64,000 nucleotides of DNA from assembly GCF_001975725.1 (NCBI RefSeq), contig NZ_CP019434.1, positions 2,129,486 to 2,193,485 on the forward strand, in the 5' to 3' direction. The notes under the pieces were generated by a model. It was not told the DNA's origin and did not search any database. It saw only the letters and a program-made list of their open reading frames with translations. Made by a program: the position numbers and the translations under genes. The DNA is from Acidihalobacter ferrooxydans (lineage in GTDB: Bacteria; Pseudomonadota; Gammaproteobacteria; DSM-5130; Acidihalobacteraceae). Of this stretch, positions 1,681-30,855 are shown in pieces. How positions within the stretch are numbered: position 1 is the first letter of the stretch; every line of letters begins with the position of its first letter.

Positions 1681-1685
1681 GGGGT

Positions 1686-2441: not shown

Positions 2442-2479
2442 GCCACTACACCTCTGAATCGATCAATAGAATCGGCTAA

Positions 2480-2524: not shown

Positions 2525-2537
2525 TCACGCGATCTTA

Positions 2538-3612: not shown

Positions 3613-3626
3613 GGCGCCAGCGCCGC

Positions 3627-5408: not shown

Positions 5409-5777
5409 CTTCCCTGGTTATTCGATATACTCGGCAACAAGCGGTGCAGTTTACCTGCGCGCACTTGCCGCATGATACGACGCTCGCCTCTTACATTAGC
5501 ACTGTGCGGGATTGGGCGACGCCCTGAAGCTGCACTCTAACGAGCGTCAGCAGAACACCCTCCCGTTCGGCATGACCGACCTGCTCATCGTGGAACGTCG
5601 CCGGTGACATGCGATACACTCTCAGCGAACCGGCTTGTGTTGGCCCGCCTTAAGAATTCACAAAACAGTCGCCAACAACAGCGCCCGGAGCACGCGGCGC
5701 ATGTTACGGGGGGCAGCCTCTGCGCGGCAAGAGACAATTCGCGCATCCAATCCAAACCTGCGTACGAAAACTGTAGC
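5409..5777. other. Divergent intergenic region between aspS and pelA
   Basis: This 369-bp gap must hold the promoters of aspS (minus) and the pel operon (plus). An AT-rich patch near 5420-5435 (TTCGATATACTCGG) may be the aspS -10 region. I see no clear FleQ-like or other operator, and no small ORF with credible coding character. An open frame continues upstream of pelA to 5604 but has no recognisable protein features. Confidence 0.5.
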
Positions 5778-8699
5778 ATGCACTCATTCCGAACAGACCA
5801 CGGCCTAGCATCCGTATCCCATCATCGCGGCGGATTAGACATTATTCTCACTGCCGTTTTATTTTTGTTGTCAGCACCATTGGCATTTGCCGCCCAGCAG
5901 CCACCCTCCGTGGCGTTTTTCTACGGTGGCCAACCACCCATGAACGTGCTCCAGAACTTCGACTGGGTTGTGGTACAGGCACCAGACAAACGCAAGGCCA
6001 CAGCGCTCGAGCGCCCGCACAGCACACTGTTCGCCTACGTCTCCCTCGGGGAAGCCGAAGCCGGAACGCGCACGGCCCAAGCGTTGCCCAGTCATTGCCG
6101 GCTTGGCAAAAACAGTACCTGGAATTCGATCATCGTCGATCAGTCAAACCCCGCCTGCCGCGCGTTCTATCTTGATCGGGTCATCGCGCCGCTGCTCGCG
6201 CGCGGTTACCACAACTTTTTCTTCGACACCCTCGACAGCTATCGCCTGGTTCTCGCAGGAACTGACAACCAAGCCAAACGCCGTGCCTATCGGGCTGGCC
6301 TGATCGACCTGATCAAGGCGATTCATCAGCGGGATCCGACCGGCAAATTCATTCTCAATCGCGGGTTCGAATTGCTTGATGCGCTGCATGGCCAGGGCGT
6401 CGTCGGCGTGGCCGCCGAGTCGCTGTACCGCGGCTGGGACCAAAAAACGAAACGCTATGTCGCGGTGCCCAGGGCAGACACCGATTATCTGCTCCAGCAG
6501 TTCGCCAAGGTGCGCAAACACGGGCTGGTTCCCATCGCCATCGACTACCTGCCGCCGCAACAACGCACGCAAGCCGAAGCGCTGGCGCGCAAAATCGCCG
6601 CTCACGGCATCGCCCCCTATGTGACCGACGGCGCGTTGAACATCGTCGGCGTCAGTTCCGTCACCCCGCAGCCGCGGCGCATTCTGATGCTCTACGAGGG
6701 CCCCCACGCGCCGATGAACAACAACCTCAACTGGTATGCGGCCATGCCGCTCAACCACCTGGGCTACGCTACCCGCCAGATCGACGTCAGCACGCAAAAC
6801 CTGCCCACCGGACCGCTCACCGGCCAGGTCGCCGGCATTGTCACCTGGTTCGACAATGCCAGCTTCCCGCGCTCGGCAGCCACCTGGCGCTGGCTGCACG
6901 AACAGATCGCCGCCGGCGTGCCGGTGGCGGTGCTCGGCAGCTTCGGCGCGGGCGGCGATTCGACAACCCTGCAGGCATTGGCTCTCTCGCAGGGCGCGCA
7001 ACCGCCGGCGGGCCTGCATCCGACGCGTATCACCCAACGGGCCAAGGATTTTTTCGGATTCGAAAACCCGCCGCTGCCCAGCGCGCCCGACTTCATACCC
7101 TGGCAGATCAGCAAGGGCAAACCGCTACTCACCGTCTCGGAGGCCGGCCAGACCGAAGTCGCGGCCGCGATCACGCCCTGGGGCGGCTATGCTCTGAGCC
7201 CGTACGTGCTGCGCAACCTGCCGCAGGGTGATCTCAAGTCCGGCGAAATACAGGCCGCCTGGATTCTCAACCCCTTCCGCTTCTTTCGCGCCGCGCTGCG
7301 CCTGCCCGAGGTACCCGTCTACGACTACACCACCGCCAGTGGGCGGCGCCTGCTGTTCGGCCTGATCGACGGCGACGGCTTCGCCTCCGGCTCCTGGATC
7401 GGTCGTTTCCGCGACCAACCCGCCGCCAAGGTGATCCTCGATCAAGTACTCAAGCGTTTCCCGCTGCCGATCACGGCCTCGGTGATCGCCAGCGAATTCG
7501 CCTACGACGGCCTGTATCCAAAGGCCGAGGTGAACCGCCTGCGGCCCATCGCGCGCGCCATGTTCCGCCTGCCCTGGGTGGAAATGGGCTCGCACACCTA
7601 CTCCCATCCCTTCGACTGGCCGGCGCTGGAGCGCGATCCGAATCTGTCCGCCGGACTGCACATCAAAAAGGGGGCGCATACCCAGGGTGCCTACGTCACC
7701 GGTGACAGTCCATCGCTGCAGTACGGCTACAATCTGCCGGTGCCCGGCTACCGCTTCAGCCCCGAAATGGAGGTGACCGGCTCGGTGAAGATCATCGACC
7801 GCCTGCTCGCCCCGCCGGGCAAGCGGGTGCGCGTGATCCAGTGGTCCGGCGACACCAACCCCGACGCCGAAGTCCTGGGCATCGCCTACCGCGACGGCCT
7901 GGCCAACATCAACGACACCAACAGCACCATCGACCGCGCGCATCCGTCGCTCACCAACGTCGCGCCGCTGGGCGTGTGGAAGGGGCCGTATTTCCAGGTC
8001 TATTCGCCGATTGCCAACGAGGACCAGTACACCCACGGCTGGCAGCCGCCCTACTGTGGCTACAACAAGGCCATCCAGACCATGCAGATGACCGGCGCGC
8101 CGCGCCGGCTCACCGCGATGCAGATTTATTACCACTTCTATTCCGGCGCGCGCGCCTGCGCCCTGAAAGACCTGACTGAGGTCTACCAGTGGGCGCAGAA
8201 ACAATCCTCCACCCCGGTGTTCGCCTCGACCTACAGCCACATCGCCGTGGCCTTCGAGCACGCCGGACTGGCACGCACCGCCGAGGGTTATCTCGCCCGT
8301 GGCTACGGGCTCGATCAGGAACTGCGTATTCCCGCAAGCCTCGGCTACCCCGATCTTGCGCGCTCACGCAACATCGCCGGATTCGATGTGGCCAACGGCC
8401 AGCGCTACATCCATCTCGGCCCTGGCAATCAGGCGCTCCTGGTGCTCAGCCACAAGCGACCGCATGCGCCCTATCTGGTCAGCGCCAACGGTCTGATCGA
8501 AAATCTTCAACGCGGCCCCGGCCGACTGCAACTGAAACTGCGCGGCTTCGTCCCTCTGTCGCTGACCCTGGGCAACGCACAGGGTTGCCGGATTCGCCTG
8601 AATGGCAAACCTCTGTCTGCGCCAAAGGCTGTTGCGGGCCGCGTCAGCCTGCACCTGAAAGCACACAAGGCCGCCATCGCCGTGGCTTGCGGCCAATAG
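5778..8699 (+). CDS. pelA: Pel polysaccharide hydrolase/deacetylase PelA
   Basis: The 973-residue protein has an N-terminal signal sequence (LDIILTAVLFLLSAPLAFA, residues ~25-43). An endo-acting glycoside hydrolase domain follows (GH166 type, ~45-300; 'FFYGGQPP', 'NRGFELLD'), then a central Rossmann-like region (~300-500) and a C-terminal polysaccharide deacetylase domain ('GLIDGDGFASGSW', 'MGSHTYSHPFDW') with metal-binding Asp and His residues. PelA partially de-N-acetylates and trims Pel in the periplasm. The frame is open from 5604, but the ATG at 5778 is chosen because it places the signal peptide near the N-terminus. Length is close to Pseudomonas aeruginosa PelA (948). Confidence 0.95.
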   Translation: MHSFRTDHGLASVSHHRGGLDIILTAVLFLLSAPLAFAAQQPPSVAFFYGGQPPMNVLQNFDWVVVQAPDKRKATALERPHSTLFAYVSLGEAEAGTRTAQALPSHCRLGKNSTWNSIIVDQSNPACRAFYLDRVIAPLLARGYHNFFFDTLDSYRLVLAGTDNQAKRRAYRAGLIDLIKAIHQRDPTGKFILNRGFELLDALHGQGVVGVAAESLYRGWDQKTKRYVAVPRADTDYLLQQFAKVRKHGLVPIAIDYLPPQQRTQAEALARKIAAHGIAPYVTDGALNIVGVSSVTPQPRRILMLYEGPHAPMNNNLNWYAAMPLNHLGYATRQIDVSTQNLPTGPLTGQVAGIVTWFDNASFPRSAATWRWLHEQIAAGVPVAVLGSFGAGGDSTTLQALALSQGAQPPAGLHPTRITQRAKDFFGFENPPLPSAPDFIPWQISKGKPLLTVSEAGQTEVAAAITPWGGYALSPYVLRNLPQGDLKSGEIQAAWILNPFRFFRAALRLPEVPVYDYTTASGRRLLFGLIDGDGFASGSWIGRFRDQPAAKVILDQVLKRFPLPITASVIASEFAYDGLYPKAEVNRLRPIARAMFRLPWVEMGSHTYSHPFDWPALERDPNLSAGLHIKKGAHTQGAYVTGDSPSLQYGYNLPVPGYRFSPEMEVTGSVKIIDRLLAPPGKRVRVIQWSGDTNPDAEVLGIAYRDGLANINDTNSTIDRAHPSLTNVAPLGVWKGPYFQVYSPIANEDQYTHGWQPPYCGYNKAIQTMQMTGAPRRLTAMQIYYHFYSGARACALKDLTEVYQWAQKQSSTPVFASTYSHIAVAFEHAGLARTAEGYLARGYGLDQELRIPASLGYPDLARSRNIAGFDVANGQRYIHLGPGNQALLVLSHKRPHAPYLVSANGLIENLQRGPGRLQLKLRGFVPLSLTLGNAQGCRIRLNGKPLSAPKAVAGRVSLHLKAHKAAIAVACGQ

Positions 8700-8705
8700 C
8701 CGCCA

Positions 8706-9500
8706 ATGAGTACGAGCGCTCCAGTGCGCGGCCCTCTGCGACAGTCGCCACGCGCCGCCGCGCGCCGCGAACGTTTCATGCCCTGGTGGTTGCCTCTGGC
8801 TATCCTCGGCGCCACCGCGTTCGCCTTGTGGCTGCTGTTTCCAAAAACCTATATCGAACAAACCCTGCGCGCACAAACCCGACCCAACGCAGCCACCCTC
8901 GCCTACCTGCAATTGCTGGTAAAAGCCAACCCGGACAATCTCTCCACCCGCCTGATGCTCATCGAAAAAGCCCTGCTCGTGCAGAATTTACCCCTGGCGC
9001 GTCAGGCACTCGCACACTGGCGGAACCGGCCGCTTGAGACCCTGCCGCTCGACATCGCCCGGGCGCGCTTGCATTTGCTCCGACTGGAACTGCTGGCCGG
9101 TCCGCCGCAGGCGCCCGAACGGCAGCAACGGGTGGCCCGCTACACGCGCGATCTACTGCAGCTGGCGCCGCGTCTGACAACCGAACAAGCGCTACAGGAA
9201 ACCCGCTTTACCCTCCAACTCGGCGCCTACGCAACCGTCGCGGCTGTCGACCGGACGCTACTGCGGCGCACGGCACAACCCGCGCTGCGCGAACAAGTCT
9301 ATACGCAGGGCATCACTGCCCTGCTCGCTGGCGGTCAGCCCCGCGCGGCGCTGGCATTCGCCCGCACCGAAATGGGCCATGTACCCCATAACGATGCGCT
9401 CTGGCGTCGTCTGATCCGCCTGGCGTTGGCCGCAGGCCAACCCGAGCTGGCCGCCCGCTGCGCCCGCCGCCTGGTCGGCCTGCCGGAGCCGGCAGGATGA
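8706..9500 (+). CDS. pelB1: PelB N-terminal part: inner-membrane-anchored TPR protein (split gene)
   Basis: A 264-residue protein with a basic N-terminus, one membrane span (MPWWLPLAILGATAFALWLL, ~26-45) and helical tetratricopeptide-like repeats rich in Leu/Ala ('LMLIEKALLVQNLPLARQAL'). It aligns in position with the N-terminal segment of P. aeruginosa PelB (1193 residues), a TM anchor followed by periplasmic TPRs. The ORF ends in TGA overlapping the ATG of the next gene (ATGA), so PelB is made as two polypeptides here. It begins 6 nt after pelA. Confidence 0.85.
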   Translation: MSTSAPVRGPLRQSPRAAARRERFMPWWLPLAILGATAFALWLLFPKTYIEQTLRAQTRPNAATLAYLQLLVKANPDNLSTRLMLIEKALLVQNLPLARQALAHWRNRPLETLPLDIARARLHLLRLELLAGPPQAPERQQRVARYTRDLLQLAPRLTTEQALQETRFTLQLGAYATVAAVDRTLLRRTAQPALREQVYTQGITALLAGGQPRAALAFARTEMGHVPHNDALWRRLIRLALAAGQPELAARCARRLVGLPEPAG

Positions 9501-12331
9501 GTGTCGCACTCACCCTGCGCCGGCTTTCCGTCCTGTTCACCCTCGCCCTCGCGCCCGGCATGCCAGGGGCAGCGGCCACCGAGGCACCGACGCTGCCGAC
9601 ACGCCCGTTTCAGAGCGAGGACTGGAATCTCGCCTGGCAGGCCTTTATCGGCGCGGGGAAGGTTCAGGAAGCCTATGGCCTGGCGCTGAAAGCGGTCGCC
9701 GCCCGCCCCGCCAGCCGGCTGTGGTGGCAACGGCTGGCCCAGGCAGCCCGTTGGAGCAGCCATCCGCAGACCGCGCTCGAAGCGCTCACTCGCCTGGCCG
9801 AATCTTTCGGCGACCGCAAGGCCCTGCGCGAGGCGCTGAATCTTGCCATCGGCCTGGAAGAACACAGCCGTACCCTCGGCCTCTTGCGGCTCGCTATCCA
9901 CGCCGGCATGGCCACGCCCGCCGAACGGCGCATGCTCACCGGGCTGTATCTCGACACTGGACAACCACTGGCGGCGATACGCGCGCTGCAGGACGAATTT
10001 CGCCGTCGTCCCGAGCCTGAACTGCTCTGGGAGCAGGCCGTTATCTATCGACTGATCGGCGATCCGGACAAGGAGCTCACGGTGCTGCGCGCCTACCAGC
10101 GGCGCTACGGTCCGACGCCCCGGGTGATGCTGGCCATCGCCACCCGCGAATACATTCAGGGGCACTTCGAACGCGCGCTGGACGGCCTGATCGCCGCCCA
10201 ATCACGCGCCAAACCGAGCGACACGGCCTACTGGGAAACCCTGAGCGGACTGGCCTGGATGCTCGGGCGCTACGATCTGGCCGCACGCAGTGCCCGCGTG
10301 CTGGTCCACCACGGCAAAGCCAGCGCCACCCTCTACCAGCGCCTGGTCTTCATCGAACAGTACACCCACGCACACAAGGCTTTTGCCGACGCCGAGCGAG
10401 GCTGGCGCGTCACCCACGACCCCGCCCTCTTCATGTCCATGCTGGCCATTGCCTCCTCGCTCACGCCCTCCAGGCCGTGGCTGGAACGCGCCTTTGCCGA
10501 GCTCACCCCGGATGAAGCCAGGCAGTTCGCTGACCGGACGTTCTACTGGACCAGCCTGGCCAACCTGCGCGCGCAACAAGGCGACTTCGAGTCCGCCGCC
10601 ACCGCTTACCGCAAGGCGTTGCGTCTCGCGCCGCAAGACAACAACATCCTCTCCGGCTATCTCTGGCTGTATGCAGACCAGAATAAGGAACGTTCGCTGC
10701 GCCCGCAGCTCGGACAACTTGAGCGTCGGGCGGCCAACGCGCCCGCACTCTGGGGGCCGCTGGCCGCCATCTACGCCGCGCTCGACGAACCGCAGCGGGC
10801 GCTGCCGTGGCTGAAGCGTCAGTGGCCGACACACCACGGCGATCCCCTGTGGCTGCTCAACTACGCCGACACCCTCGCCCAGGCCGATCTCGACCGGCAA
10901 GCCTGGACGATGCGCCGTCGTGCGCTGACGCTGCTGGAGACGACCCCGACGCACGCGAGCACGAAACAACGGGAAAACCGTCGGCGCATCGCCCGCGCGC
11001 GCCTGATCGCCACGCTGCTACCGGGCGATCCCGGACGACGCGCCATGCAGACGCTGGCCGCGACAGACACCTCGCGCGAAGCGCGTGTCGCGGTGCTCGG
11101 CGCGGCGCTGGACGCCCAGGACATGATGCTGGCGCGCTGGTGGCGCGAACACGCCTTCACGCACGCCTCGCCGCCGGCCTGGGCAGCGCTGTCGCTGGCC
11201 CTTGCGGACAACGACGGCCCCGCTATCGCCCGACTGCTCGCGACACAACGCGACCGCCTGCCGCGCCGCGACCGGGTCGATGCCGCGCAGCGCCTGGGTT
11301 GGGACCCGCTCGCGCTGAGTCTGGCCTGGCAGGGCATGCAGGGCGAACCGGCGGACCGACGCCTGCACCGCCAGTTTCGCGAACTGGCGTTACCACGCGC
11401 CGCCAGCATCGGCGTCAGTAGCAGCGTGCAAAGCGGCAGCGGTCTGCTGACAATGCCAGGCACGCTCGACCTGCGCGACTGGCTCAGCCCCCGCGACCGC
11501 CTGCAAGTGTCCGCGTCACTCGCCGCACAACACAGCACCAACTCGACGCAGCTCGGCACCCCCCCCGCAGCACCTGACGATCTGCTGGTGCAATGGCGTC
11601 ATCTCACCCGCCGTGGACACTTCGATCTCAGCCTCAGCGCCGGCCATGATCTGGCCAGTTGGTTCCGCCTCGGCCTGGCCTGGACACGGACATGGACGGA
11701 TGCACTGCACACCACTTTCGAGGCAACGCGTGGCGCGCAGCCCACGGCCACCGTGCCGCTCTCGCTCGGCGGACTCGAAGATCGCCTTGCCGCCTCGGTC
11801 GATCTCAGGCTCACACCGCGCGACAACCTGAGTGCGCAGTTCGGCGCTGCACAACTCTATGCGCAGGGCGGCGGCGCGCTGGGCAATGCGCAGACGGCGA
11901 CGCTGACGCTGCGCCATAAATTCTGGTTCGCACCACCGGATTTCACCCTGGATGCCTCCCTGAGCGGAGCGCGTTACCAAAGAGCGACCCGCCTGCCGCC
12001 TCAACTGGCCGCGTTGGTGCCCGGCGGACAGACGCCGGACGTCGCCTTTTTCGTGCCAGGCAGTTACGTCCAGGCCTGCATCGGCGGCTCCTTCAACACG
12101 CACTACCAGACCGACTATGCGGCCAAGCTGCGCCCCTTTGCCAGCGCCAGCGTCTGCGCCAACAGCGCTTATGGCGCCGGTTATGACCTGCAAGGCGGCT
12201 TTGCACTGCCACTGCTAGGCCCCGATCATCTGGCCGTCAACGCCGGCATCAGCAGCAATTTCGGCACACAAAACAGTCCAACCGCCCAGATCGGCCTCAG
12301 TTACCGGTACTATTTCGTTCCCCTGCCCTAA
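9497..12331 (+). CDS. pelB2: PelB C-terminal part: TPR scaffold plus outer-membrane beta-barrel
   Basis: The 944-residue product starts with its own signal sequence (residues ~1-27, ending PGAAA). It continues with many TPR-type helical pairs (~40-640) and finishes with an amphipathic beta-strand region (~650-944) ending 'QIGLSYRYYFVPLP', typical of a 16-strand porin. PelB guides Pel and PelA in the periplasm and forms the outer-membrane pore with PelC. Together with the upstream 264 residues, total length (1208) equals one-piece PelB (1193). An independent signal sequence argues for a genuine two-gene arrangement over a sequencing frameshift. Confidence 0.92.
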   Translation: MSVALTLRRLSVLFTLALAPGMPGAAATEAPTLPTRPFQSEDWNLAWQAFIGAGKVQEAYGLALKAVAARPASRLWWQRLAQAARWSSHPQTALEALTRLAESFGDRKALREALNLAIGLEEHSRTLGLLRLAIHAGMATPAERRMLTGLYLDTGQPLAAIRALQDEFRRRPEPELLWEQAVIYRLIGDPDKELTVLRAYQRRYGPTPRVMLAIATREYIQGHFERALDGLIAAQSRAKPSDTAYWETLSGLAWMLGRYDLAARSARVLVHHGKASATLYQRLVFIEQYTHAHKAFADAERGWRVTHDPALFMSMLAIASSLTPSRPWLERAFAELTPDEARQFADRTFYWTSLANLRAQQGDFESAATAYRKALRLAPQDNNILSGYLWLYADQNKERSLRPQLGQLERRAANAPALWGPLAAIYAALDEPQRALPWLKRQWPTHHGDPLWLLNYADTLAQADLDRQAWTMRRRALTLLETTPTHASTKQRENRRRIARARLIATLLPGDPGRRAMQTLAATDTSREARVAVLGAALDAQDMMLARWWREHAFTHASPPAWAALSLALADNDGPAIARLLATQRDRLPRRDRVDAAQRLGWDPLALSLAWQGMQGEPADRRLHRQFRELALPRAASIGVSSSVQSGSGLLTMPGTLDLRDWLSPRDRLQVSASLAAQHSTNSTQLGTPPAAPDDLLVQWRHLTRRGHFDLSLSAGHDLASWFRLGLAWTRTWTDALHTTFEATRGAQPTATVPLSLGGLEDRLAASVDLRLTPRDNLSAQFGAAQLYAQGGGALGNAQTATLTLRHKFWFAPPDFTLDASLSGARYQRATRLPPQLAALVPGGQTPDVAFFVPGSYVQACIGGSFNTHYQTDYAAKLRPFASASVCANSAYGAGYDLQGGFALPLLGPDHLAVNAGISSNFGTQNSPTAQIGLSYRYYFVPLP

Positions 12332-12352
12332 GCCCATGAAGAGGACATTTCC

Positions 12353-12892
12353 ATGAAAAAGCCCCATACGCTATGGCCTGTCTTGCTGTCGGCCCTTTTG
12401 TTGCTGGGCCTCAGCGGCTGCGCCGGCATGCGGCTCGATGCAGCGCCCGCACCGCATCTGGACACAACCGCCACACTGGCGGTGCTGACACCGCGTAACA
12501 ACACCTCGACCCCCTACGCCGGACAACGGGTGCAGCAGCAACTGGCGGCTCTGCTGGTCGCACATGGGCTTCGGAAAGTCATCCTCCAGCCGTCGTCCGT
12601 CAACGCGGCATTGCCGGTCGGCGCAGCGCCCGGCAATGCCGCGGATGCGCTGGCCTGGGCGCGCAAGCAGGGCGCGCCTTATGCCTTGACCGGCAGCGTC
12701 GATGAATGGCGCTATAAAATCGGCCTGGACGGACAGCCGGCGGTCGGTTTCACCTTGCGGCTGATCGACGTGAACACCGGCCAGACCCTCTGGAGCGGCG
12801 CCGCCGCGGCCAGCGGTAACAGCCGCGAAGGACTTGCAGTGCTTTCCCAACAGGTGCTCGATCGCCTGGTCAATCGACTGCTGGGCCGCTGA
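12353..12892 (+). CDS. pelC: Outer-membrane lipoprotein PelC
   Basis: The 179-residue protein has a lipoprotein signal with lipobox LSGC, the acylated Cys being residue 23. PelC forms a dodecameric ring under the PelB barrel and funnels the cationic polymer electronegatively. Here the mature part carries the conserved 'YALTGSVDEWRYK' and a C-terminal amphipathic helix (LSQQVLDRLVNRLLGR). A purine-rich ribosome site (GAAGAGGACA) precedes the ATG. It lies 21 nt after pelB2 and 6 nt before pelD. Confidence 0.92.
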   Translation: MKKPHTLWPVLLSALLLLGLSGCAGMRLDAAPAPHLDTTATLAVLTPRNNTSTPYAGQRVQQQLAALLVAHGLRKVILQPSSVNAALPVGAAPGNAADALAWARKQGAPYALTGSVDEWRYKIGLDGQPAVGFTLRLIDVNTGQTLWSGAAAASGNSREGLAVLSQQVLDRLVNRLLGR

Positions 12893-12898
12893 GACAGC

Positions 12899-14248
12899 AT
12901 GGCCGATAGCCATCTCGATCACGCAAGTACGCGCCTCAGCCTGCTGGCCTGGGCCGAAATTGCCCTGCTCGCTCCGGCCGGGCTGGGTCTGGCGATTTTT
13001 CTGGACCATCAGGCGCCGTTCACCGCCGGCGGTTTCCCCTGGCTCTGGCTCATCCCCTTGCTGCTGGGTCTGCGTCACGGGCTGGCCGCCGCCGCCTTGA
13101 GCAGCTTGCTGCTGATTGCTGGCGGCGTGGCCGCGCACACGTTAGCCATCAGCGCCGCAGCGCCGCCGTTGCTACAGATCGTCGGCGGACTGATCGCCGT
13201 ACTCAGCGCGGGGCAGTACGGCACGAACTGGCGCGCCCGACTTGAAGCCAACCAGCGCCGCACCGAATACGCCGAAGAACGCCTCGAAGCGCTGAGCCGG
13301 GCCTATTTCATTACCCGCATCTCGCATGACCGTCTGGAAGAAGCGCTCATCACTCAACCCATGACCTTACGCGGCGCGCTGGAGCAACTGCGCCCCGTGG
13401 CCGAACGCGCCGCACAGGGGCTGGACGAGTCCACAGCCACAGATCTTCTGCAACTCCTTGCGCAGTATTGTCGTTTCGAAACGGCTGGCGTACATCTGGC
13501 GCGCAACGACCGGTTCGATCCGCAACCTCTCGCCGCGCTCGGGCCCCAGGCGCCGCTGGTCTCGGACGATCCGTTAGTCGGCCTTGCGCGCGAAGGCCGT
13601 CAAGTCGCTTTTTACAGCGTCGATCAGCTGATCGAATTCAATCGTGAAATCACCTATCGCGCGGTATTCCCCCTGCTTGACTGCACCCTTCGGCCCTGGG
13701 GTCTGATCGTGGTGCGCGATCTGCCCTTGCTGGCTGTCAACGAGGAAAACTTCGCCACCGCCAACGCCATTGTTCAGTACGTCGCCGAAGAGACGCGGGT
13801 CGTGACCGAAAGCGCCGATCTGCTGCAGCAATTCCCCTGCTGCCCACCCCACTTCGCGCATGAACTGATCCGCCTGCAAACCTTGCAAACACGGGCGAAG
13901 GTGCGTTCCACGCTGATCGCCGTGCATCTGCCCCCGACCAGCAACGATGAAAACGGACTTTCAGCCGAAGCGATTTACCATGGCATGCGCCGCAGCCTGG
14001 ATGTCTACTGGCTGGCGCCCTTTGCTGCGGATGATCCCGGCTTGCTGGTGCTCCTGCCGCTGGCGGGACCGGCCAGCGCCCGCGGGTACCTCGACCGCCT
14101 CGATGCCTGGCTGAAGGAACACGGCCAAACGCAAGGCCTGGCGCTACCCAATTTGTGGATCGAGCAGATCCTCCTGGATGGACGTCCGGCCGGGAAGCTG
14201 CTCGAGATGACCCACATCCCCTGCGCGCCCATAACATCGCACCCATGA
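12899..14248 (+). CDS. pelD: c-di-GMP receptor PelD
   Basis: The 449-residue protein has four hydrophobic spans (~15-105), a helical linker (~110-145), a GAF domain (~155-310) and a degenerate GGDEF domain (~325-440). The GGDEF motif itself is lost. An RxxD inhibitory-site motif is kept at R365-S-L-D368 in 'RRSLDVYW', nearly the same positions as R367/D370 of P. aeruginosa PelD, which bind c-di-GMP and switch on Pel synthesis. It ends with ATGA overlap into pelE. Confidence 0.94.
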   Translation: MADSHLDHASTRLSLLAWAEIALLAPAGLGLAIFLDHQAPFTAGGFPWLWLIPLLLGLRHGLAAAALSSLLLIAGGVAAHTLAISAAAPPLLQIVGGLIAVLSAGQYGTNWRARLEANQRRTEYAEERLEALSRAYFITRISHDRLEEALITQPMTLRGALEQLRPVAERAAQGLDESTATDLLQLLAQYCRFETAGVHLARNDRFDPQPLAALGPQAPLVSDDPLVGLAREGRQVAFYSVDQLIEFNREITYRAVFPLLDCTLRPWGLIVVRDLPLLAVNEENFATANAIVQYVAEETRVVTESADLLQQFPCCPPHFAHELIRLQTLQTRAKVRSTLIAVHLPPTSNDENGLSAEAIYHGMRRSLDVYWLAPFAADDPGLLVLLPLAGPASARGYLDRLDAWLKEHGQTQGLALPNLWIEQILLDGRPAGKLLEMTHIPCAPITSHP

Positions 14249-15375
14249 TATTGAGCGACTTTTTCACGCCACTCGTTGTGGCCACGCACTGGATACCCGA
14301 GTCCATCATATCCCTTGGCGCCTGGCTGAACCCCACTGCGCCCGCCACACGGCTGGTACCGGGACTGCTCCTTGTGAGCAGTCTGTTCAGTCTGTTGATT
14401 TCCGTCCTCGTCGTCGCCCTGCTGCCAGGGCGGCTGCACCGCCGTCCGGTGCGCAATGCACTGGCCATCGCCGCGCTGGGTTCCCTGCTGCCTGTTCTGG
14501 GTCCGCTGTCCCTGCTCGGCATGGGGCTGATCTTTCCGCTGCTGGAAAAAAACCGGTCGCGCCTGCAACCCGAGCATTTGACCACACCGGACTTCGCCAG
14601 CGAGATTCGCCCGCACAGCGCCGGATTCAGCGCCGGTGGCGCTCTGGCCCGCTTGCGCGGCAACAATGGCGTTCAGGGCATGCGCGCCCTGCTTGCCATC
14701 GAGCACCGGCGCAGCGCCATCAGCACCCGCCTGCTCAGTCAAAGTCTGGGGCATCCAGACGAGATCGTGCGTCTGCTGGCCTATAATTTGCTGGAGCGCC
14801 GCGAGCAGGCGATCGTGGCCCGACTCAGCGAACTCGAACCCCATCTGGATACCGGAAGTCCGTCGGACCTGGAGGAGCGCAGCGAAGCGCATGGCAAACG
14901 GCCCCGTTCTCCCATCGCCGCAGCCGATTCTGCCCAAGTCCGACAGACTCTTGACAACGCCGACACGGCCTGGCTGGCTCTGCAGGCTGCGTCACTGCAT
15001 CTTGAATTCATCTACCTCGAACTGGCCCAGGGCAGCCTGCGCCAGACACACATCCAGGCGGCGGCTCGCCTGCTCGCCGATAGCGCAGAGTTTGCGCCGC
15101 AGAGTCCGTGGTATCCGGCCTGGTTATCCTTGCAGGCGCGCGTCCTTCAATTGCAGGGTGACAAGACTGACGATCCACGTATCGAGAGTCTGTTGAAAGA
15201 CGCACTGGCCGCCGGCTGCGCCCCGGCGCGCGCCCTGCCCTGGCTGCTTGAGCGTGCCTGGCAGCGCCGCGATTACGCCACCCTGAAACACCTCGTGGAA
15301 CACCATCACGTCTATCCCATGATTCCTCATCTTGGCCCTGTGGTCTCCCGCTGGCGCACAAGGACAAACCCATGA
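14245..15375 (+). CDS. pelE: Inner-membrane TPR protein PelE, with repeat-derived insert
   Basis: A 376-residue protein with two membrane spans (~35-60 and ~70-95) followed by a cytosolic helical TPR-like domain; PelE bridges PelD, PelF and PelG in the synthase complex. The start at 14245 overlaps pelD as ATGA; the frame extends further upstream but only inside pelD. The protein is longer than P. aeruginosa PelE (329). Residues ~206-236 are encoded by a 90-bp segment (14861-14950) that matches the dispersed family A repeat found between genes elsewhere in this window. The stop overlaps pelF (ATGA). Confidence 0.9.
   Translation: MILSDFFTPLVVATHWIPESIISLGAWLNPTAPATRLVPGLLLVSSLFSLLISVLVVALLPGRLHRRPVRNALAIAALGSLLPVLGPLSLLGMGLIFPLLEKNRSRLQPEHLTTPDFASEIRPHSAGFSAGGALARLRGNNGVQGMRALLAIEHRRSAISTRLLSQSLGHPDEIVRLLAYNLLERREQAIVARLSELEPHLDTGSPSDLEERSEAHGKRPRSPIAAADSAQVRQTLDNADTAWLALQAASLHLEFIYLELAQGSLRQTHIQAAARLLADSAEFAPQSPWYPAWLSLQARVLQLQGDKTDDPRIESLLKDALAAGCAPARALPWLLERAWQRRDYATLKHLVEHHHVYPMIPHLGPVVSRWRTRTNP
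14861..14950 (+). repeat. Family A repeat copy A1, in frame inside pelE
   Basis: The segment starts CGTCGGACCTGGAGGAGCGC and ends GTCCGACAGACTC. It shares the 19-nt block CATCGCCGCAGCCGATTCT with copy A4 (43877-44037) and the left block CGTCGRACYTGGAGGA. It lacks roughly 70 bp of the middle found in full copies. It is 90 bp (30 codons) long and leaves the pelE frame open. Confidence 0.85.
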
Positions 15376-16889
15376 ATAACGAGACTGACTGTGACATCCT
15401 GCTGCTGCTCGAAGGCACATACCCGTACATCAAAGGCGGCGTCTCCTCCTGGGTGCATCAAATCGTCAGTGGGCTGCCGCATTGGCGCTTCGGCGGCGTA
15501 TTTATCGGCTCGAGGCGGCAGGATTACGCCGAAATCCAGTACCAGTTACCGGCAAATTTCGTGACCTTGAGCGAACACTATCTGTTCGATGAAACACCTG
15601 GCTCGACGCCGCTGCGCCCACCGCGCCTGCCTGCGGACGCACAAGCCAGCTATGTCCGGCTCCACGAATCACTGCGCCGCGGCGAGAGCGGCGCGTTCGA
15701 TCCAGAGGCTTTGCTGGAACCCGGTTCGGCGCTGCGGGAAGCGGCCTTTCTGCATGGCGACGCCGCCTGGCGCTATATCACGCAGTGCTATGAAACCGGC
15801 GCTTCGGAGCCCTCGTTTCTGGATTATTTCTGGACTGTGCGAAACCTCCACAAGCCACTGTGGACCCTGGCCGAGGCCGCGCGCACACTGCCCCGGACAC
15901 GCTTGCTGTTCAGCCCCTCGACCGGCTACGCCGGCCTGCTGGGCGTGTTCGGTGCGCAGCGCCAGGAATGTCCTTTGGTGCTGATGGAACACGGCATTTA
16001 CACCAAGGAACGGCGCATCGATCTGATGAACGCCGACTGGATCGCCGACACCCGCAACCCCTTGCTGCGCGACCCGACCGAGGTCAGCCATCTGCGCGAG
16101 ATGTGGGTACGCTTTTTCGAGGCACTCGGCCGTCAGGCCTATGCACGGGCCGATCCGATCGTTTCCCTGTTCGGGAAGGCCCGCCAACAACAGATTCACG
16201 ACGGGGCCGACCCGCAACGCACACGCATCATCCCCAATGGCGTGGATGTGGCGGGCCTGAGGGCGTTGCGCCGGCCCACGCAAGACGCGCCGCCCGCAGT
16301 GATTGGCCTGCTCGGTCGGGTAGTACCGATCAAGGACATCAAAACCTTCATCCGCGCCGCGCACCGACTGCGCGAACGTCTGCCGGAGGCCCAGGCCTGG
16401 ATCATCGGCCCGGAAGACGAAGACCCCGAGTACAGCCGCGAATGCCACGATCTGGCCCGCGCGCTCGATCTGGGCGATGCGCTGCAGTTCCTGGGCTTTC
16501 AGCGCATTCACGATATTCTGCCGAAGATCGGCGTACTGGTGCTGAGTTCGATCAGCGAAGGGCTGCCGTTGTCGGTGCTGGAGGGTTTCTCGGCGGGCCT
16601 GCCCAGCGTGACCACCGACGTCGGCGCTTGCAGTGAGCTGATCTACGGCCGCGAGGGTGACGCAGCCGACCGCGCGCTGGGTGCGGCCGGCGCCGTAGTG
16701 GGTCTGGCCGATCATGAGGCCTTGGCCGAGCGCTGCGCCGAGCTGCTTGAGGATCAGGCCCACTACGCCGCCGCTGTGCGCGCCGCGACCGCCCGCGTGG
16801 AGCGTTACTACGACCGCCCCACCATGCTCGACACCTTCGATGCGTTGTTCGCACAGAAGCTGACCACCCCGACCGAGGAAACCCGCTGA
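15372..16889 (+). CDS. pelF: Pel glycosyltransferase PelF (GT4)
   Basis: The 505-residue cytosolic enzyme (P. aeruginosa 507) polymerises Pel from UDP-activated amino sugars. It has the N-terminal 'LLEGTYPYIKGGVSSW' glycine loop of GT-B enzymes, 'LMEHGIYTKER', and the C-terminal EX7E motif in 'SEGLPLSVLEGF'. It overlaps pelE by 4 nt and pelG by 1 nt, so pelD-G form one translationally coupled chain. Confidence 0.96.
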   Translation: MNNETDCDILLLLEGTYPYIKGGVSSWVHQIVSGLPHWRFGGVFIGSRRQDYAEIQYQLPANFVTLSEHYLFDETPGSTPLRPPRLPADAQASYVRLHESLRRGESGAFDPEALLEPGSALREAAFLHGDAAWRYITQCYETGASEPSFLDYFWTVRNLHKPLWTLAEAARTLPRTRLLFSPSTGYAGLLGVFGAQRQECPLVLMEHGIYTKERRIDLMNADWIADTRNPLLRDPTEVSHLREMWVRFFEALGRQAYARADPIVSLFGKARQQQIHDGADPQRTRIIPNGVDVAGLRALRRPTQDAPPAVIGLLGRVVPIKDIKTFIRAAHRLRERLPEAQAWIIGPEDEDPEYSRECHDLARALDLGDALQFLGFQRIHDILPKIGVLVLSSISEGLPLSVLEGFSAGLPSVTTDVGACSELIYGREGDAADRALGAAGAVVGLADHEALAERCAELLEDQAHYAAAVRAATARVERYYDRPTMLDTFDALFAQKLTTPTEETR

Positions 16890-18265
16890 TGGCCGGCATC
16901 GGCTTTGAACTGCGCCGTCTCTCGCGCAGCGATTCCTATCTGGGCCAGTTGCGCGCGTATTTCTATGCCGGCATCGTCGGCTCCGGCCCGTGGGTGCTAT
17001 CGATCCTCGCGATCCTCGTGCTCGGCGTGATGAGCCTGGGCGTAGTGGTACCGGCGCAGCTGATCAGCCAGTTTCAGACCAGCGTGACCTGGCTGATCGC
17101 ACTCAGCCTGATTTATTCCGGCGGCGTACAACTGCTCTATACCCGCTATGTTGCCGACCGCCTGTTCGAGCACCGCAGCGAGGAAGTACTGCCCAATCTG
17201 TTTGGTATTGTGCTCCTCACCACCCTGCCACTGTTTTTGCTGTCGATCCCGCTTGCGCTCTGGCTGTTGCCTGGCACCACCCCGGCCTACCGGTTGCTGA
17301 TGGTCGTTGCGCTGAGCCAGCTCAACATGGTCTGGATCCTGACCGTGCTGCTGTCCGGTCTGAAGCAGTACAAATGGCTGCTGGTGCTGTACTTTCTGGG
17401 CTATGGCGGCGCCGTGGCGCTGGGTCTCGCGCTGGGCCGCGCCGGGCTGGGCATGGAAGGGCTGCTGTTGGCCTTCGTACTTGGCCAGGCCGTGATCGCC
17501 GTGGGTTCGCTGGCGTTGGTATGGCGCGAATACCCGCCACAGCGTCTGATTGGCTTCGATTTCCTGCGCCGTGGCCGGTTGAAACTCTGGCTGCTGCCGA
17601 CCGGCCTTCTGTTCAATGCCGGGGTCTGGGTCGACAAATTCCTGTTCTGGCTATGGCCAAGCACGGGACATGCCGTCATTGGCACTTTGCACGCCTCCGT
17701 CATCTACGACACGCCGGTATTCCTCGCCTACTTCACCATCATCCCCGGCATGGCCGTTTTCCTGCTGCGCATGGAAGTCGATTTCGTGCTCGGCTACGAT
17801 CGCTATTACGATGCCGTGCGCGAAGGCGGCGCACTTTCCAGCATTCGCCATTATCGCGAGCAGATGGTCGTCACCGCTCGCGCGGGTATCTACGACATTC
17901 TCAAGACCCAGGGCTTCACTCTGCTCGGATTAATGGCATTAGGGCCTTCGTTACTGGGATTTTTTGGCATTCCGACGCTGTATTTCCCGCTGCTGGTGAT
18001 CGACGCGGTCGGCGTCAGCCTGCAATTGCTGGTCATGGCCGGGCTGAACATCCTGTTCTATCTGGACCGCCTGCGCACCGCCGCCGCCATGACCGCCCTG
18101 ATGTTCGTGGGCAATCTCGCGTTAACCCTGGTGACGCTTAATCTGGGCCCGTTCTACTTCGGCTACGGCTTCGTGGTCGCCATGCTCATCTCGGCAGTGG
18201 CCATTCTGCTGACCTGCAACCGGATTCTGGATCGGCTCAACTACACCACTTTCATGCTTCGTTGA
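16889..18265 (+). CDS. pelG: Pel exopolysaccharide membrane transporter PelG
   Basis: The 458-residue polytopic protein (about 12 hydrophobic spans; P. aeruginosa 456) starts MAGIGFELRRLSRSDSYLG, the hallmark PelG start. PelG is the MOP/flippase-like inner-membrane component that works with PelD, PelE and PelF. The ATG overlaps the pelF stop by one base (TGATG). The gene ends 14 nt inside the convergent DUF502 gene, leaving no room for a private terminator. Confidence 0.96.
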   Translation: MAGIGFELRRLSRSDSYLGQLRAYFYAGIVGSGPWVLSILAILVLGVMSLGVVVPAQLISQFQTSVTWLIALSLIYSGGVQLLYTRYVADRLFEHRSEEVLPNLFGIVLLTTLPLFLLSIPLALWLLPGTTPAYRLLMVVALSQLNMVWILTVLLSGLKQYKWLLVLYFLGYGGAVALGLALGRAGLGMEGLLLAFVLGQAVIAVGSLALVWREYPPQRLIGFDFLRRGRLKLWLLPTGLLFNAGVWVDKFLFWLWPSTGHAVIGTLHASVIYDTPVFLAYFTIIPGMAVFLLRMEVDFVLGYDRYYDAVREGGALSSIRHYREQMVVTARAGIYDILKTQGFTLLGLMALGPSLLGFFGIPTLYFPLLVIDAVGVSLQLLVMAGLNILFYLDRLRTAAAMTALMFVGNLALTLVTLNLGPFYFGYGFVVAMLISAVAILLTCNRILDRLNYTTFMLR

Positions 18266-25905: not shown

Positions 25906-28900
25906 ATGGAGCAAATGGATCAGACTGACCTGAAAATCCTGCTGCAACGGATGATGGAACTGCAGGACCTGCTCGCCCAGGTGAACCAGGCCGCCGTGCA
26001 GACGCACGACGAAACGCAGTTTCTGCAAACGGCCTGTGATCTGGCGGTCGAGCGCGGCAAGCTGATTCTGGCTGTCGTGGCGAAACCGCAAGCTGACGGA
26101 TGGTTCGCCTTCCCAGCCGCAGCGGGCAGAACCGACCATCTCGAACGCCTGCGCATCTCGACCGAGGCCGAGTTGCCCGAAGGTCAGGGTACGGTCGGGC
26201 GCGCCTGGCGCGAGGGCACGCGTTTTTACAACATCGATTGCAACTCGGCGGAGTTGGCTCCCTGGCGCGAATACGCTCAAGCCCAGGGACTTCGCGCCAG
26301 CGCGGCACTGCCGCTCATGCGCCAGGGCGAACGTTATGCAGTGCTGCTGCTCTGGCGCGGCGACGACGTGGTCTTCAACCCTGAGATGCAGGCGCTGCTC
26401 GGCGAACTGGCGATGGACATCTCCCGCGGTCTGGACGCCATCGGCGAACGCCAACTGCGCGAAGCCTTGCTGGCGAACACCGCGGCCGCCATCCTGGTCG
26501 TGCGCGAACGGCACATTTATCGATTCAATGCGCAACTGGGCCTGCTGATCGGGCGCAGCGACGCGGAACTCAGCGGCCAAAGCACCCGTATCCTGTTCTC
26601 CAGCGACGCGGAATATCAACGTGTCGGCGCCGCGTATGAGACGTTGCACGCACAAGGGCATGTCACGGTGCACTCGGTCAGCTACCGGAATCGCAACGGT
26701 GACGATCTGCTGCTCGACCTGCATGGTCAACGGCTCGATGACACCACAACGGTCTGGACCTTGATCGACGTCACGCAACGCGCGCGTCTGCAGGCGCTTT
26801 ACCGATCCCTCATGCATGAGGGATCCATCCTGCTGCAGGCGCAAAGTGAAGTCGAAATGCTCGAAAAGACCTGCCACGCGCTGACCCAGGGTACGGCGTT
26901 CCATACCGTCTGGATCGCCAAGCCCGATGCGCAGAATCAACTCCGCGCACTCGCCGTGGCGGGAGCAGGCCAGACCGCGCTCGAACGCACAACCCTGAAC
27001 CTGAACGACTTGACCCATGCGCCACTGACCGTTCGTGCCTGGCGATCGCAGGAAGTGGTATTCGACAACGCACGCGACAACGACCCGCGACTCGGTGAAC
27101 TGCAGGAGTTATTCCGCGCGCATTGCTGGCATTCCGTTCTATCTGCGCCGGTCGCAAGAGGCGGCGAACCCTGGGCGCTACTGACCTTCGCCTCACCCGA
27201 GCGCGGCGTATTCGACGAAGACACCGTAGCAGCCTGCAAACGCATCGCCGAGTTGCTCGGCCACGGCCTCGACGAACTCGATCTGCGCCAGCGCCTCGTT
27301 GAACAGGAGCGCGGCGAGGCCCATCGCGCCCGCCATGACGCCCTGACCGGCCTGCCCAACCGCATCGCCCTGAACGAATACCTCCCGCAAGCCATCGCCC
27401 GCGCCCGCCGTCTCGAAACCGTCTTCGCCGTCGGTCTGATCGACCTCGACGGCTTCAAGGCCGTCAATGATCGCTGGGGACATGCCACAGGCGACGAACT
27501 GCTTGGACAGCTGGCTGAGCGGCTGCGTCAGGTTCTGCGCCAGAGCGATTATCTGGCGCGGCTGGGTGGTGACGAGTTCGTCGTCGTGTTCGAACACCTC
27601 GACGAATTGCAGATAACCTCCCAACTACGCGGTGCACTGGAGCATCTGCATACAGCCGTGGAAACACCGTTCGAACTCTCCAGCGGAGACTCCGCCCAGA
27701 TAGACATGAGCATGGGGCTGGCGCAGTTTCCGCTGCACGCCGAAGAACCGGACACCCTCCTGCGCGAAGCCGATGCGGCCATGTACCAGGTCAAACGAGG
27801 CGATCACGCGCACCGTCACTGGTGGCGTCTGGGGGTCCATCGGACGCCACCAACCGACCTGGCAGACGACGAAACCGCCTTCGACGCCTATGGGACGCGT
27901 GCCGCCGCCCTGCTCGAACGCGCCCGGATACGACTCGAAGCGGTAACGACAGAGTTCGTCGACACCTGGTACGCCGAAATGGAGGCGGATTCATCCGCCG
28001 CCGCCATTCTTCAGACCCTCGACGCGGGCGAACTGCCGACGCTCAAAACAAGGCAGACGGCACATCTGCACTTTTTGCTTGCACCGGAGACTTCCGCTCA
28101 GGCCATCACGGAAGTGGGTATCCGGCTTGGCCGCGTGCATGCTCAGGCCGGCGTGACGACGGATCTGCTGATCGAGTTCATGGAACGCTATGAAGCATTG
28201 CTCAGACAGGCATGGATCGAAGCGGTCGCCCGCAAGGGAGAACGCAGCCTGCTCAATGAAATACTCGCGGCCCGTCTGAATACTAATCTGCGCGCACAAC
28301 TGCGCGGGTGCGACGCCGTGCTCTCGGCATTGCATACCTGTATCGCCAGACCTGTACCGACCCCATCGGCACAACGTCAATGGATCGACACGGCACGCGA
28401 CGAACTCAGTGCGCTGGCCGGACTGCCTGGCATCAAGGTGACCGCGCTTCTGCAGCCTGACGATCAGGGCGTATTCCGGTTCATCCTGATCGAGGGTCAA
28501 CACGCAGACACATACGTGCGATGGGTGCACACCCGGAATATGTCCCCCCGGCTAGATCCAAGCTCGCCATACGGCCAGGGCAATCTCGTCCGTGCCTGGC
28601 AATCCGGGCGCATTGAAATCGTCCCTGCGTTGCGACTGGATCCATGCCAACAACCCTGGCTTGAGCTGTTCGAGCAGTTGCGACTGCGCAGCGAAGCCGC
28701 CGTGCCGCTACAGGACAGCGCCGGCAATACCGAAGCCATCGTCTTGCTGGTCGGAGCGTCCCCCAACCAGTTCGCCGCACCCTGGTTCCGTCAGATTCTG
28801 CAAACCGTTCAGTATCGTTGGAGCGCACTCTGGCAATCGCGACTCAGGCAACACACACCCGTCATCGCGCATGAGCTGGCCGATACCCGGCGCGCAGCCC

Positions 28901-29892
28901 TGTTCGGTGGCGGTTTATCGATGTGGGTGCAGCCGATCATATCGCTTCGCACTGGCCGGATCGCCAAAGTCGAAGCCCTGGCGCGGCTACGCATGCCCGA
29001 TGGCGCATGGGTAAGTCCGGACGGATTTCTGCCACTGCTGGGGGAGCGGGATCTACGCTGGCTATTCAGCGAAGGTCTGCAACAGTCGCTGCAGATCGTA
29101 CGACAATGGGAATCAGCAGGATTGCGCCTCGATCTCTCGCTCAACCTGCCACCCGCCATACTGCACGACCCGAAAGTGCCCGAAATGATAGACGCTCATT
29201 TGCAGGCGGCCGGCATGCCCGCGCAGCGGTTGATGCTGGAACTGCTGGAAAGCCAGGACCTGGAATCCACGACCCCGGCGATCCTGATCCAGCTCGCCGC
29301 ATCCGGCATCAAGCTCGCCATCGACGACCTGGGCGCCGGCTACAGCAGTCTGGTTCGCCTGCGTTCGCTGCCGGTCAGCACGTTCAAGATTGATCAGGGG
29401 CTGGTGCGTGACGCGGCGGCCGACCCGCTGCGCGCCGTATCCCTGATCCAGGCGCTCATCGGACTGGGCGGCGACCTCGATCAGGACATCATCGTGGAAG
29501 GTCTGGAAAACGACGCCTTGATTGAAATGGCCGCGATACTCGGCGCCGATTACGGTCAGGGATATGGCCTGGCCAGCCCCATGCCCGCCGCAGAACTGCC
29601 CGCCTGGACGCGCTCGTTCCGGCACGCGACAACGCCGCAAACGTTAAACACGCCACTGGGCGCACTCGCGCATCATCTGCATTACGAGAAGAACCGCCAC
29701 ACCGAGTACCTGGTGCCGCTGGCATCCTGTCCTCTCGGCGCCTTTATCGAGCGTCGCGGCCTGCGCTCCAATGCGCTGGGACAGGCTCACGACGCCCTGC
29801 ATGCGGGTGAAGACATCGAACGCAGCAGCCATCGGATCATCGCGGAACTGGTCGAACTGATCCGGCAAGACGACAGCCAAGCCAACACCTAG
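25906..29892 (+). CDS. Multidomain c-di-GMP enzyme: GAF-PAS-GAF-GGDEF-globin-GAF-EAL-CZB-like
   Basis: A 1328-residue cytosolic protein. Order: GAF (~15-175), PAS (~185-290), GAF (~300-465), GGDEF (~480-640) with intact GGDEF at 554-558 and inhibitory RxxD at 545-548, a globin-coupled-sensor-like helical domain (~660-800; 'LGRVHAQAG' gives a candidate proximal His745), GAF (~850-1000), EAL (~1005-1250) with E1023-A-L and D1140/D1141 in 'DDLGAGYSS', and a ~70-residue C-terminus with 'CPLGAFI' (C1275) and H1295-x3-H1299, like the CZB zinc site. Both cyclase and phosphodiesterase motifs look active. It has no transmembrane span. It could set c-di-GMP for PelD in this window (inference). Confidence 0.88.
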   Translation: MEQMDQTDLKILLQRMMELQDLLAQVNQAAVQTHDETQFLQTACDLAVERGKLILAVVAKPQADGWFAFPAAAGRTDHLERLRISTEAELPEGQGTVGRAWREGTRFYNIDCNSAELAPWREYAQAQGLRASAALPLMRQGERYAVLLLWRGDDVVFNPEMQALLGELAMDISRGLDAIGERQLREALLANTAAAILVVRERHIYRFNAQLGLLIGRSDAELSGQSTRILFSSDAEYQRVGAAYETLHAQGHVTVHSVSYRNRNGDDLLLDLHGQRLDDTTTVWTLIDVTQRARLQALYRSLMHEGSILLQAQSEVEMLEKTCHALTQGTAFHTVWIAKPDAQNQLRALAVAGAGQTALERTTLNLNDLTHAPLTVRAWRSQEVVFDNARDNDPRLGELQELFRAHCWHSVLSAPVARGGEPWALLTFASPERGVFDEDTVAACKRIAELLGHGLDELDLRQRLVEQERGEAHRARHDALTGLPNRIALNEYLPQAIARARRLETVFAVGLIDLDGFKAVNDRWGHATGDELLGQLAERLRQVLRQSDYLARLGGDEFVVVFEHLDELQITSQLRGALEHLHTAVETPFELSSGDSAQIDMSMGLAQFPLHAEEPDTLLREADAAMYQVKRGDHAHRHWWRLGVHRTPPTDLADDETAFDAYGTRAAALLERARIRLEAVTTEFVDTWYAEMEADSSAAAILQTLDAGELPTLKTRQTAHLHFLLAPETSAQAITEVGIRLGRVHAQAGVTTDLLIEFMERYEALLRQAWIEAVARKGERSLLNEILAARLNTNLRAQLRGCDAVLSALHTCIARPVPTPSAQRQWIDTARDELSALAGLPGIKVTALLQPDDQGVFRFILIEGQHADTYVRWVHTRNMSPRLDPSSPYGQGNLVRAWQSGRIEIVPALRLDPCQQPWLELFEQLRLRSEAAVPLQDSAGNTEAIVLLVGASPNQFAAPWFRQILQTVQYRWSALWQSRLRQHTPVIAHELADTRRAALFGGGLSMWVQPIISLRTGRIAKVEALARLRMPDGAWVSPDGFLPLLGERDLRWLFSEGLQQSLQIVRQWESAGLRLDLSLNLPPAILHDPKVPEMIDAHLQAAGMPAQRLMLELLESQDLESTTPAILIQLAASGIKLAIDDLGAGYSSLVRLRSLPVSTFKIDQGLVRDAAADPLRAVSLIQALIGLGGDLDQDIIVEGLENDALIEMAAILGADYGQGYGLASPMPAAELPAWTRSFRHATTPQTLNTPLGALAHHLHYEKNRHTEYLVPLASCPLGAFIERRGLRSNALGQAHDALHAGEDIERSSHRIIAELVELIRQDDSQANT

Positions 29893-29902
29893 CCCGGACG
29901 CC

Positions 29903-30100
29903 TCAGTCCTTGGGCCGACCGTAGCTTCCGGCCAGCCAGACCATCGCCGGCAACAACACCGCGACCAGTCCCCAACCGGCCAATGCGTTCTGCCCCGCCC
30001 CGGCGAGCACAAAGGCCACGCCAGCGGCCACCAATACCGCCAGCGTGTTGGCCGCATCGCCGAATATCGACTTGATCAACGCCTTGAAGAACGTATTCAT
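29903..30100 (-). CDS. Small two-span membrane protein
   Basis: A 65-residue protein with two hydrophobic segments (~13-30 and ~35-52) and a short charged tail (SYGRPKD). The open frame begins earlier, but the ATG at 30100 overlaps the stop of the upstream permease gene as ATGA, so coupling fixes the start. No family is recognised; its position suggests an accessory subunit of the FTR1-like permease. Confidence 0.7.
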   Translation of the reverse strand: MNTFFKALIKSIFGDAANTLAVLVAAGVAFVLAGAGQNALAGWGLVAVLLPAMVWLAGSYGRPKD

Positions 30101-30855
30101 GCTGCACCTCCCATGCGCAGCGCCGCAGCGCGGCGGCGATACCATTGTGACGCCAGAAGACCGCTACCCGCGTACAGGGCAAACAGCACCAGCAGAGTCC
30201 AATCCGACCATGCCCAGGCCGACGGCCCCGCGATCCCTTCGATGGTCCAGAAGGTGCCAAACGACAGCAGCGCCGAACCGACCACGAACTTGATCCCGTT
30301 TTCCGGCACCCGGGTCAGCGGTTTGCGCAACGCAAACCCGAGCAGCAGCACGGCGACCAGGCCGATCAACGCTCCCGTCCCCACCGGGCCGAACGCCCCC
30401 GGGCGCGCGCCGAGCGCGACCACGATCAACCACACCTCCAGCCCTTCCAGCAGCACGCCCTTGAAGGCGATCAGCCAGGCCGCCTGATGGTCCGCACGGC
30501 TTAATTCCTCGCGGGTTTCAGCGAATTCAGCCGCCTCGTCGTGCAGCGCGATCAGGCCGGCGGCACGCGCCACCGCCTTGGCCAGCCAGCGCAGGCCGAA
30601 CAGCAGCAGAAGCACACCGATCGCCAGCCGCAGCCAGTGCATGTCCAGCCCCAGGCTGAGCGCGCCGCCGGTGACCGCGATCAACGCCGCCACCGTGATC
30701 AGCGCCGCCAGCGCCGCAGTGCCGGCACGGCGCCAGCCGACCGTAACGGCCACCGCAAGCACGATGGTATAGGCCTCGACCCACTCCACCGCCGAGGTCA
30801 GAAAGGCCGCGGTCAACAGGCCCCAGTCATGCGCGTTCATCATCAACATCGTCAA
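30097..30855 (-). CDS. FTR1/OFeT-like membrane protein (COG4280 type)
   Basis: The 252-residue protein has six to seven spans arranged as two related halves. Each half carries an ExxE motif inside a membrane helix, 'SAVEWVEAYTIVLA' (~22-35) and 'VLLEGLEVWLIVVA' (~133-146), resembling the REGLE iron-binding helices of the FTR1/EfeU permeases. The usual Arg of REGLE is replaced. I infer a divalent or ferric ion permease; COG4280 members are uncharacterised. It is followed by the small membrane gene (4-nt overlap) and preceded by an iron-type ABC operon on the same strand. Confidence 0.65.
   Translation of the reverse strand: MTMLMMNAHDWGLLTAAFLTSAVEWVEAYTIVLAVAVTVGWRRAGTAALAALITVAALIAVTGGALSLGLDMHWLRLAIGVLLLLFGLRWLAKAVARAAGLIALHDEAAEFAETREELSRADHQAAWLIAFKGVLLEGLEVWLIVVALGARPGAFGPVGTGALIGLVAVLLLGFALRKPLTRVPENGIKFVVGSALLSFGTFWTIEGIAGPSAWAWSDWTLLVLFALYAGSGLLASQWYRRRAAALRMGGAA

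Follow-up and report, generated by a model that had tools for sequence, protein, structure and literature searches.

A 64,000-nucleotide stretch of the Acidihalobacter ferrooxydans genome (NZ_CP019434.1, positions 2,129,486 to 2,193,485; the whole stretch is referred to here as the window) carries an intact open reading frame for a c-di-GMP turnover protein, P0001, together with a Pel exopolysaccharide operon (Table 1). The source genome is a single contig of 3,448,835 bases, and Acidihalobacter is a salt-tolerant iron- and sulfur-oxidising acidophile. The domain order of P0001 is GAF-PAS-GAF-GGDEF-globin-GAF-EAL-(CZB-like). A Pfam search of the protein returned three GAF stretches, a weak PAS, GGDEF, Protoglobin, and EAL; the PAS match, marginal in P0001, was above the cut-off (25.0 bits versus 22.6) in a same-genome paralogue, L005, which shares 54% identity across nearly its entire length. 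The count of eight domains in the initial annotation, with three GAF domains and one PAS, agrees with these results when the C-terminal bundle is included.

Both catalytic domains appeared intact by Pfam match and by reading of their motifs, as the same annotation had held. The I-site lies five residues upstream of the GGDEF motif (G554), and the EAL domain retains E1023, the N of SLNLPP (1078-1083), the E of LELLES (1111-1116), D1140-D1141, K1161, VEGLE (from 1197), and the Q of YGQGYG (1216-1221). By its domains and motifs, P0001 qualifies as a bifunctional GGDEF-EAL enzyme with predicted activity. A search for a promoter or terminator of its gene gave no convincing pattern, the counts being near the shuffled expectation.

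The Pel operon, including PelD as initially annotated, ends 7.6 kb upstream of the P0001 gene and is a separate operon; other genes lie between the two, among them clpB (named by reading its sequence) on the opposite strand. Because PelD is a c-di-GMP receptor, an effect of P0001 on Pel is reasonable, with proximity as the sole link. Just upstream of P0001 is a gene for a 164-aa protein with only the N-terminal domain of an asparaginase (24924-25418, + strand), and just downstream are a ferrous-iron-permease-like gene (OFeT_1; 30097-30855, - strand) and then an ABC transporter ATPase gene.

Table 1. P0001, its domains and candidate ligand residues, and the Pel operon, with positions in the window
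Feature	Position	Strand	Basis or remark
Pel operon: PelA-like GH114, PelB barrel, PelD_GGDEF, PelF, PelG	5604..18265	+	Possible effector
PelD_GGDEF	12899-14248	+	Within Pel operon
c-di-GMP turnover protein P0001	25906..29892	+	Eight domains, 1328 aa
GAF1, residues 33-176	26002..26433	+	Pfam GAF_2
PAS (weak), residues 195-291	26488..26778	+	PAS_9, E 0.009
GAF2, residues 317-452	26854..27261	+	Pfam GAF
GGDEF, residues 475-632	27328..27801	+	Pfam E 2e-42; I-site R545xxD548 read from sequence
Globin (globin-coupled-sensor type) and long exit helix, residues 664-814	27895..28347	+	PF11563, HemAT profile match, AF2
Tyr689	27970..27972	+	Aligned with HemAT distal Tyr70; invariant in 7 closest members
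His745 (F-helix)	28138..28140	+	Aligned with proximal heme His of HemAT/DosC
GAF3, about residues 821-974	28366..28827	+	Third Pfam GAF stretch; family HMM
EAL phosphodiesterase domain, residues 996-1225	28891..29580	+	Pfam E 3e-43; catalytic motifs by reading
Shortened CZB-like helical bundle, residues 1250-1326	29653..29883	+	AF2 pLDDT 89; hhalign to 26 CZB domains, prob 72-85
His1257, candidate first ligand	29674..29676	+	hhalign pairing with CZB His; conserved in L005, L054, L058, L059
Cys1275, candidate ligand in CPLGAFI	29728..29730	+	hhalign pairing with CZB
His1295/His1299 (HxxxH), candidate ligands	29788..29802	+	hhalign pairing with CZB

The internal globin and its family

The proposal that a globin-like domain lies between GGDEF and EAL is strongly supported by Pfam, profile, and structural comparisons. 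Protoglobin (PF11563) matched residues 665-776 with 33.6 bits against a cut-off of 25 (E 5e-8). A PDB search with the single sequence of residues 633-855 returned nothing useful, and globins were reached only with a family profile of seven members, which matched HemAT (E 1e-5), Tlr1989, and AfGcHK. The AF2 model of residues 645-815 (pLDDT 92) had as its best PDB matches only globin-coupled-sensor (GCS) globins: Tlr1989 (Z 17.1), DosC (16.5), AfGcHK (16.5), GsGCS (16.3), and HemAT (15.7), with rmsd values of 2.0-2.6 for the top matches. The structure prediction and HMM search suggested earlier for residues 660-800 identified a GCS globin. In the classical layout the globin is N-terminal, before the output domain, whereas this one follows GGDEF and precedes GAF-EAL; the domain is a genuine GCS globin, but the protein lacks the classical GCS layout. 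The globin fold and the domain order are the most certain parts of this analysis. The last globin helix (about 777-814) extends towards GAF3.

Both heme-pocket residues, Tyr689 and His745, are unchanged across the seven closest members, although the globin domain has otherwise largely diverged (20-45% identity); this pattern suggests selection for heme binding. The domain might instead be a linker that separates GGDEF from EAL and carries no heme, like other non-heme globin folds. The loss of the F-helix His in three relatives (Leu in L054; Leu and Asn in the two L057 proteins) would fit such a linker, but the invariance of both residues in an otherwise divergent domain argues against it, and we regard it as improbable for P0001.

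Within the class, 369 genomes were sampled, and 47 of them contained a globin matching the family profile. Architectures read for the best matches, with a Pfam check, gave at least 16 GGDEF-globin-GAF-EAL proteins in several gammaproteobacterial families. A thin phylum-wide sample (398 genomes) held no strong match beyond the source genome. The family alignment of globin plus GAF3 was nowhere conserved enough to scan the collection with, and scanning with four of the closer proteins in the family matched only a same-genus MAG. In the EAL tree, the internal-globin group, which there includes L059, L062, and L063, stood apart from the classical proteins with an N-terminal globin followed by GGDEF-EAL (support 100/100); the two groups also separated in the globin tree (88/82). 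Globin-GAF-EAL also occurs with no GGDEF domain, in L057 (two in tandem), L058, and Caballeronia WP_244817502 (L073), and L057 and L073 were placed among GGDEF-bearing proteins in the EAL tree. The stand-alone proteins and their placement make globin-GAF-EAL look like a module of its own. At L057 (G210:C103:3500-9500), where the F-helix His is replaced in both tandem genes, the globins are probably heme free and have been kept in place.

These stand-alone proteins also bear on which enzyme the globin serves. The inputs of a GGDEF domain usually lie on its N-terminal side, which in P0001 means GAF2, and where globin-GAF-EAL occurs without GGDEF, the globin's partner is EAL; both points count against the globin of P0001 mainly controlling the preceding GGDEF, or gating both enzymes in opposite directions depending on the ligand, as DcpG does. 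Such control is nevertheless conceivable, given that both active sites of P0001 look intact and that DcpG, which also joins a globin to GGDEF and EAL, is PDE active with O2 and DGC active with NO (PMC10882959). On balance, we consider it rather unlikely, and we favor EAL as the globin's target.

The C-terminal CZB-like bundle

The C-terminus had been likened to CZB on the strength of CPLG and HxxxH, both of which are present. The resemblance stood in profile-profile comparison, in which the ligand columns were paired, and did not extend to the Pfam model: CZB (PF13682) gave no match in the P0001 tail at E values up to 10, while the same library detected CZB in another protein of the genome, L060. 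A PDB search with the single tail sequence also gave nothing useful. The suggested profile and structure analysis of residues 1255-1328 supplied a fourth candidate ligand, His1257, so that in hhalign a 3His/1Cys set (H1257, C1275, H1295, H1299) paired in order with the CZB ligand columns. Against a reference alignment of 26 CZB domains from fetched loci, a set of eight tails, picked after the motif had been seen, scored 30.6 (prob 72), and its members with all four ligands scored 34.3 (prob 85). Controls remained lower, at no more than 17.4 in 200 column shuffles (0/200 as high), no more than 15.3 for other stretches of the family proteins, and 8.6 for the reversed alignment. An unselected set of 18 tails scored 21.5 (prob 10; best of 297 shuffles, 16.8), and the P0001 tail alone scored 23.7, against 20.0 for the best of 300 shuffles, in an alignment whose register was different and left the histidines unpaired.

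The tail differs from canonical CZB in its motif and its length. Relative to CX(L/F)GXW(Y/L), CPLGAFI has the C, L, and G, but Phe1280 replaces Trp and the last position is Ile; the distance from Cys to HxxxH is about 20 residues versus 26-27 in L060. Its location directly after EAL is the canonical one in GGDEF-EAL-CZB proteins. The AF2 model is a helical bundle that places H1257 on the first helix, C1275 where a helix begins, and HxxxH on a later helix. Foldseek of the model gave no significant match, and VIA-align returned generic helical bundles (HPt, catenin, and the DosC middle domain; Z of at most 6.2), CZB structures being absent among the rows of 86 chains compared, an absence that carries no weight for or against a CZB fold. 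In a GGDEF-EAL-CZB protein elsewhere in the collection (L104, G072:C17:126500-132500), a 1398-aa open reading frame joins these domains to apparent PAS-like sensors and a histidine-kinase-like C-terminus.

These comparisons support the view that the tail is a shortened, diverged CZB homologue, with four putative ligand positions. Whether it binds metal in P0001 is evenly balanced in our judgment, and the zinc site is less certain than the globin fold and the domain order. A bundle that is merely structural or serves dimerisation, with the Cys and His residues as leftovers that hold no metal, is a possibility that we take seriously while doubting it. It would account for the missing Pfam CZB and PDB matches, for the short spacings, and for the absence of the ligands in L003, L004, L006, L007, and others, in which the tail persists without metal. 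It fits less well with the joint recurrence of the four positions in L001, L005, L054, L058, and L059, with their placement on the modeled helices, and with the finding that ligand-less tails do not resemble CZB (hhalign score of only 9.7, against 34.3 for ligand-bearing tails).

The two sites do not always occur together. L054 keeps the zinc-type ligands, yet Leu replaces its F-helix His; in the close members L003, L004, L006, and L007, Tyr and His are retained and the zinc-type ligands are absent. P0001, L005, L058, and L059 have both sets. As read from these sequences, loss of the predicted heme site and loss of the predicted zinc site have been independent events within the internal-globin family, which provides natural controls for each input.

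Proposed mechanism and relation to known systems

We consider it fairly probable that P0001 is a soluble, bifunctional enzyme of c-di-GMP turnover built from two cassettes, with a gas-gated EAL side. This reading comes mainly from globin-GAF-EAL looking like a separate module, and it starts from observed features: the domain order, the globin fold, the conserved heme-pocket residues, the intact catalytic motifs, the CZB homology with its four ligand positions, and the existence of the second cassette as a separate protein. The first cassette, GAF1-PAS-GAF2-GGDEF, would be a diguanylate cyclase that responds to small-molecule or redox signals and is subject to product inhibition through its I-site. 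The second, globin-GAF3-EAL-(CZB-like tail), would be a phosphodiesterase whose globin binds heme via His745. Binding of O2, or possibly NO or CO, would shift the 38-residue exit helix leading into GAF3 and so gate EAL, and the CZB-like bundle might act as a second, zinc- or oxidant-sensitive input on the EAL side. We infer that heme and zinc would occupy their sites; the direction of regulation, which of the two activities prevails, and an effect on Pel are predictions of the same kind. Counted against the two-cassette reading were the Pfam CZB and PDB searches that missed the tail, the short ligand spacings, and the relatives without the F-helix His (L054 and L057).

More tentatively, P0001 might serve as a one-chain c-di-GMP rheostat, with separate sensors on opposing enzymes: GAF and PAS on the cyclase, and heme-based gas sensing plus a shortened zinc or redox site on the phosphodiesterase via an internal globin-GAF relay, in a lineage that falls outside the usual account of heme gas sensors, in which the sensor lies on the N-terminal side of its output (PMC8846402, PMC10882959). 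Proteins with a globin between a cyclase and a phosphodiesterase are a natural setting in which to ask whether the globin acts on the preceding or the following enzyme. In iron- and sulfur-oxidising acidophiles, a protein of this type may couple mineral attachment to the levels of oxygen and of metal or oxidant.

The initial annotation held that it would be novel for a single c-di-GMP hub to sense both a gas ligand and zinc, a claim that is not supported. Protoglobin-GGDEF-EAL-CZB has been described for Acidithiobacillus as AFE_1712, conserved through the class, in a survey that counted 80 protoglobin and 62 CZB partner domains among 387 GGDEF-EAL proteins (PMC6416229); a survey of CZB proteins lists globin among the domains observed in them and EAL-CZB as a catalogued subgroup (PMC8262984). 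The same genome also encodes such a protein, L060 (905 aa; G000:C1:3207500-3213500, - strand, ORF 1349-4063), so the pairing of globin and CZB is not new. The less usual part is the internal order of the globin. A search of an open-access library returned no paper that places a globin between GGDEF and EAL; the Acidithiobacillus survey may contain internal-globin proteins under a generic label.

P0001 resembles AFE_1712 and L060 in bringing globin, GGDEF, EAL, and CZB together in one c-di-GMP protein of acidophiles. L060, however, has an N-terminal globin and a canonical CZB, whereas P0001 has its globin between GGDEF and GAF-EAL, a shortened CZB, and three GAF domains and a PAS in addition. 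With DosC/DgcO and BpeGReg, P0001 shares the globin fold, the B-helix Tyr, and the F-helix His; those proteins differ in having an N-terminal globin, a middle domain, and GGDEF only, with no EAL. The globin of DcpG stands before both enzymes, unlike that of P0001. DcpG, from Paenibacillus dendritiformis, is nevertheless alike in combining a globin with GGDEF and EAL, and its choice of activity is gas dependent; the accessible part of its description does not mention a CZB-like tail (PMC10882959). The candidate site of P0001 can be compared with the CZB-type 3His/1Cys control of c-di-GMP enzymes in DgcZ and EAL-CZB proteins (PMC8262984), but the CZB of DgcZ is N-terminal on GGDEF, of canonical length, and carries CX(L/F)GXW. 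The stand-alone globin-GAF-EAL proteins (L057, L058, and Caballeronia WP_244817502), annotated only as EAL domain proteins, have the same cassette as P0001 with no GGDEF cassette in front.
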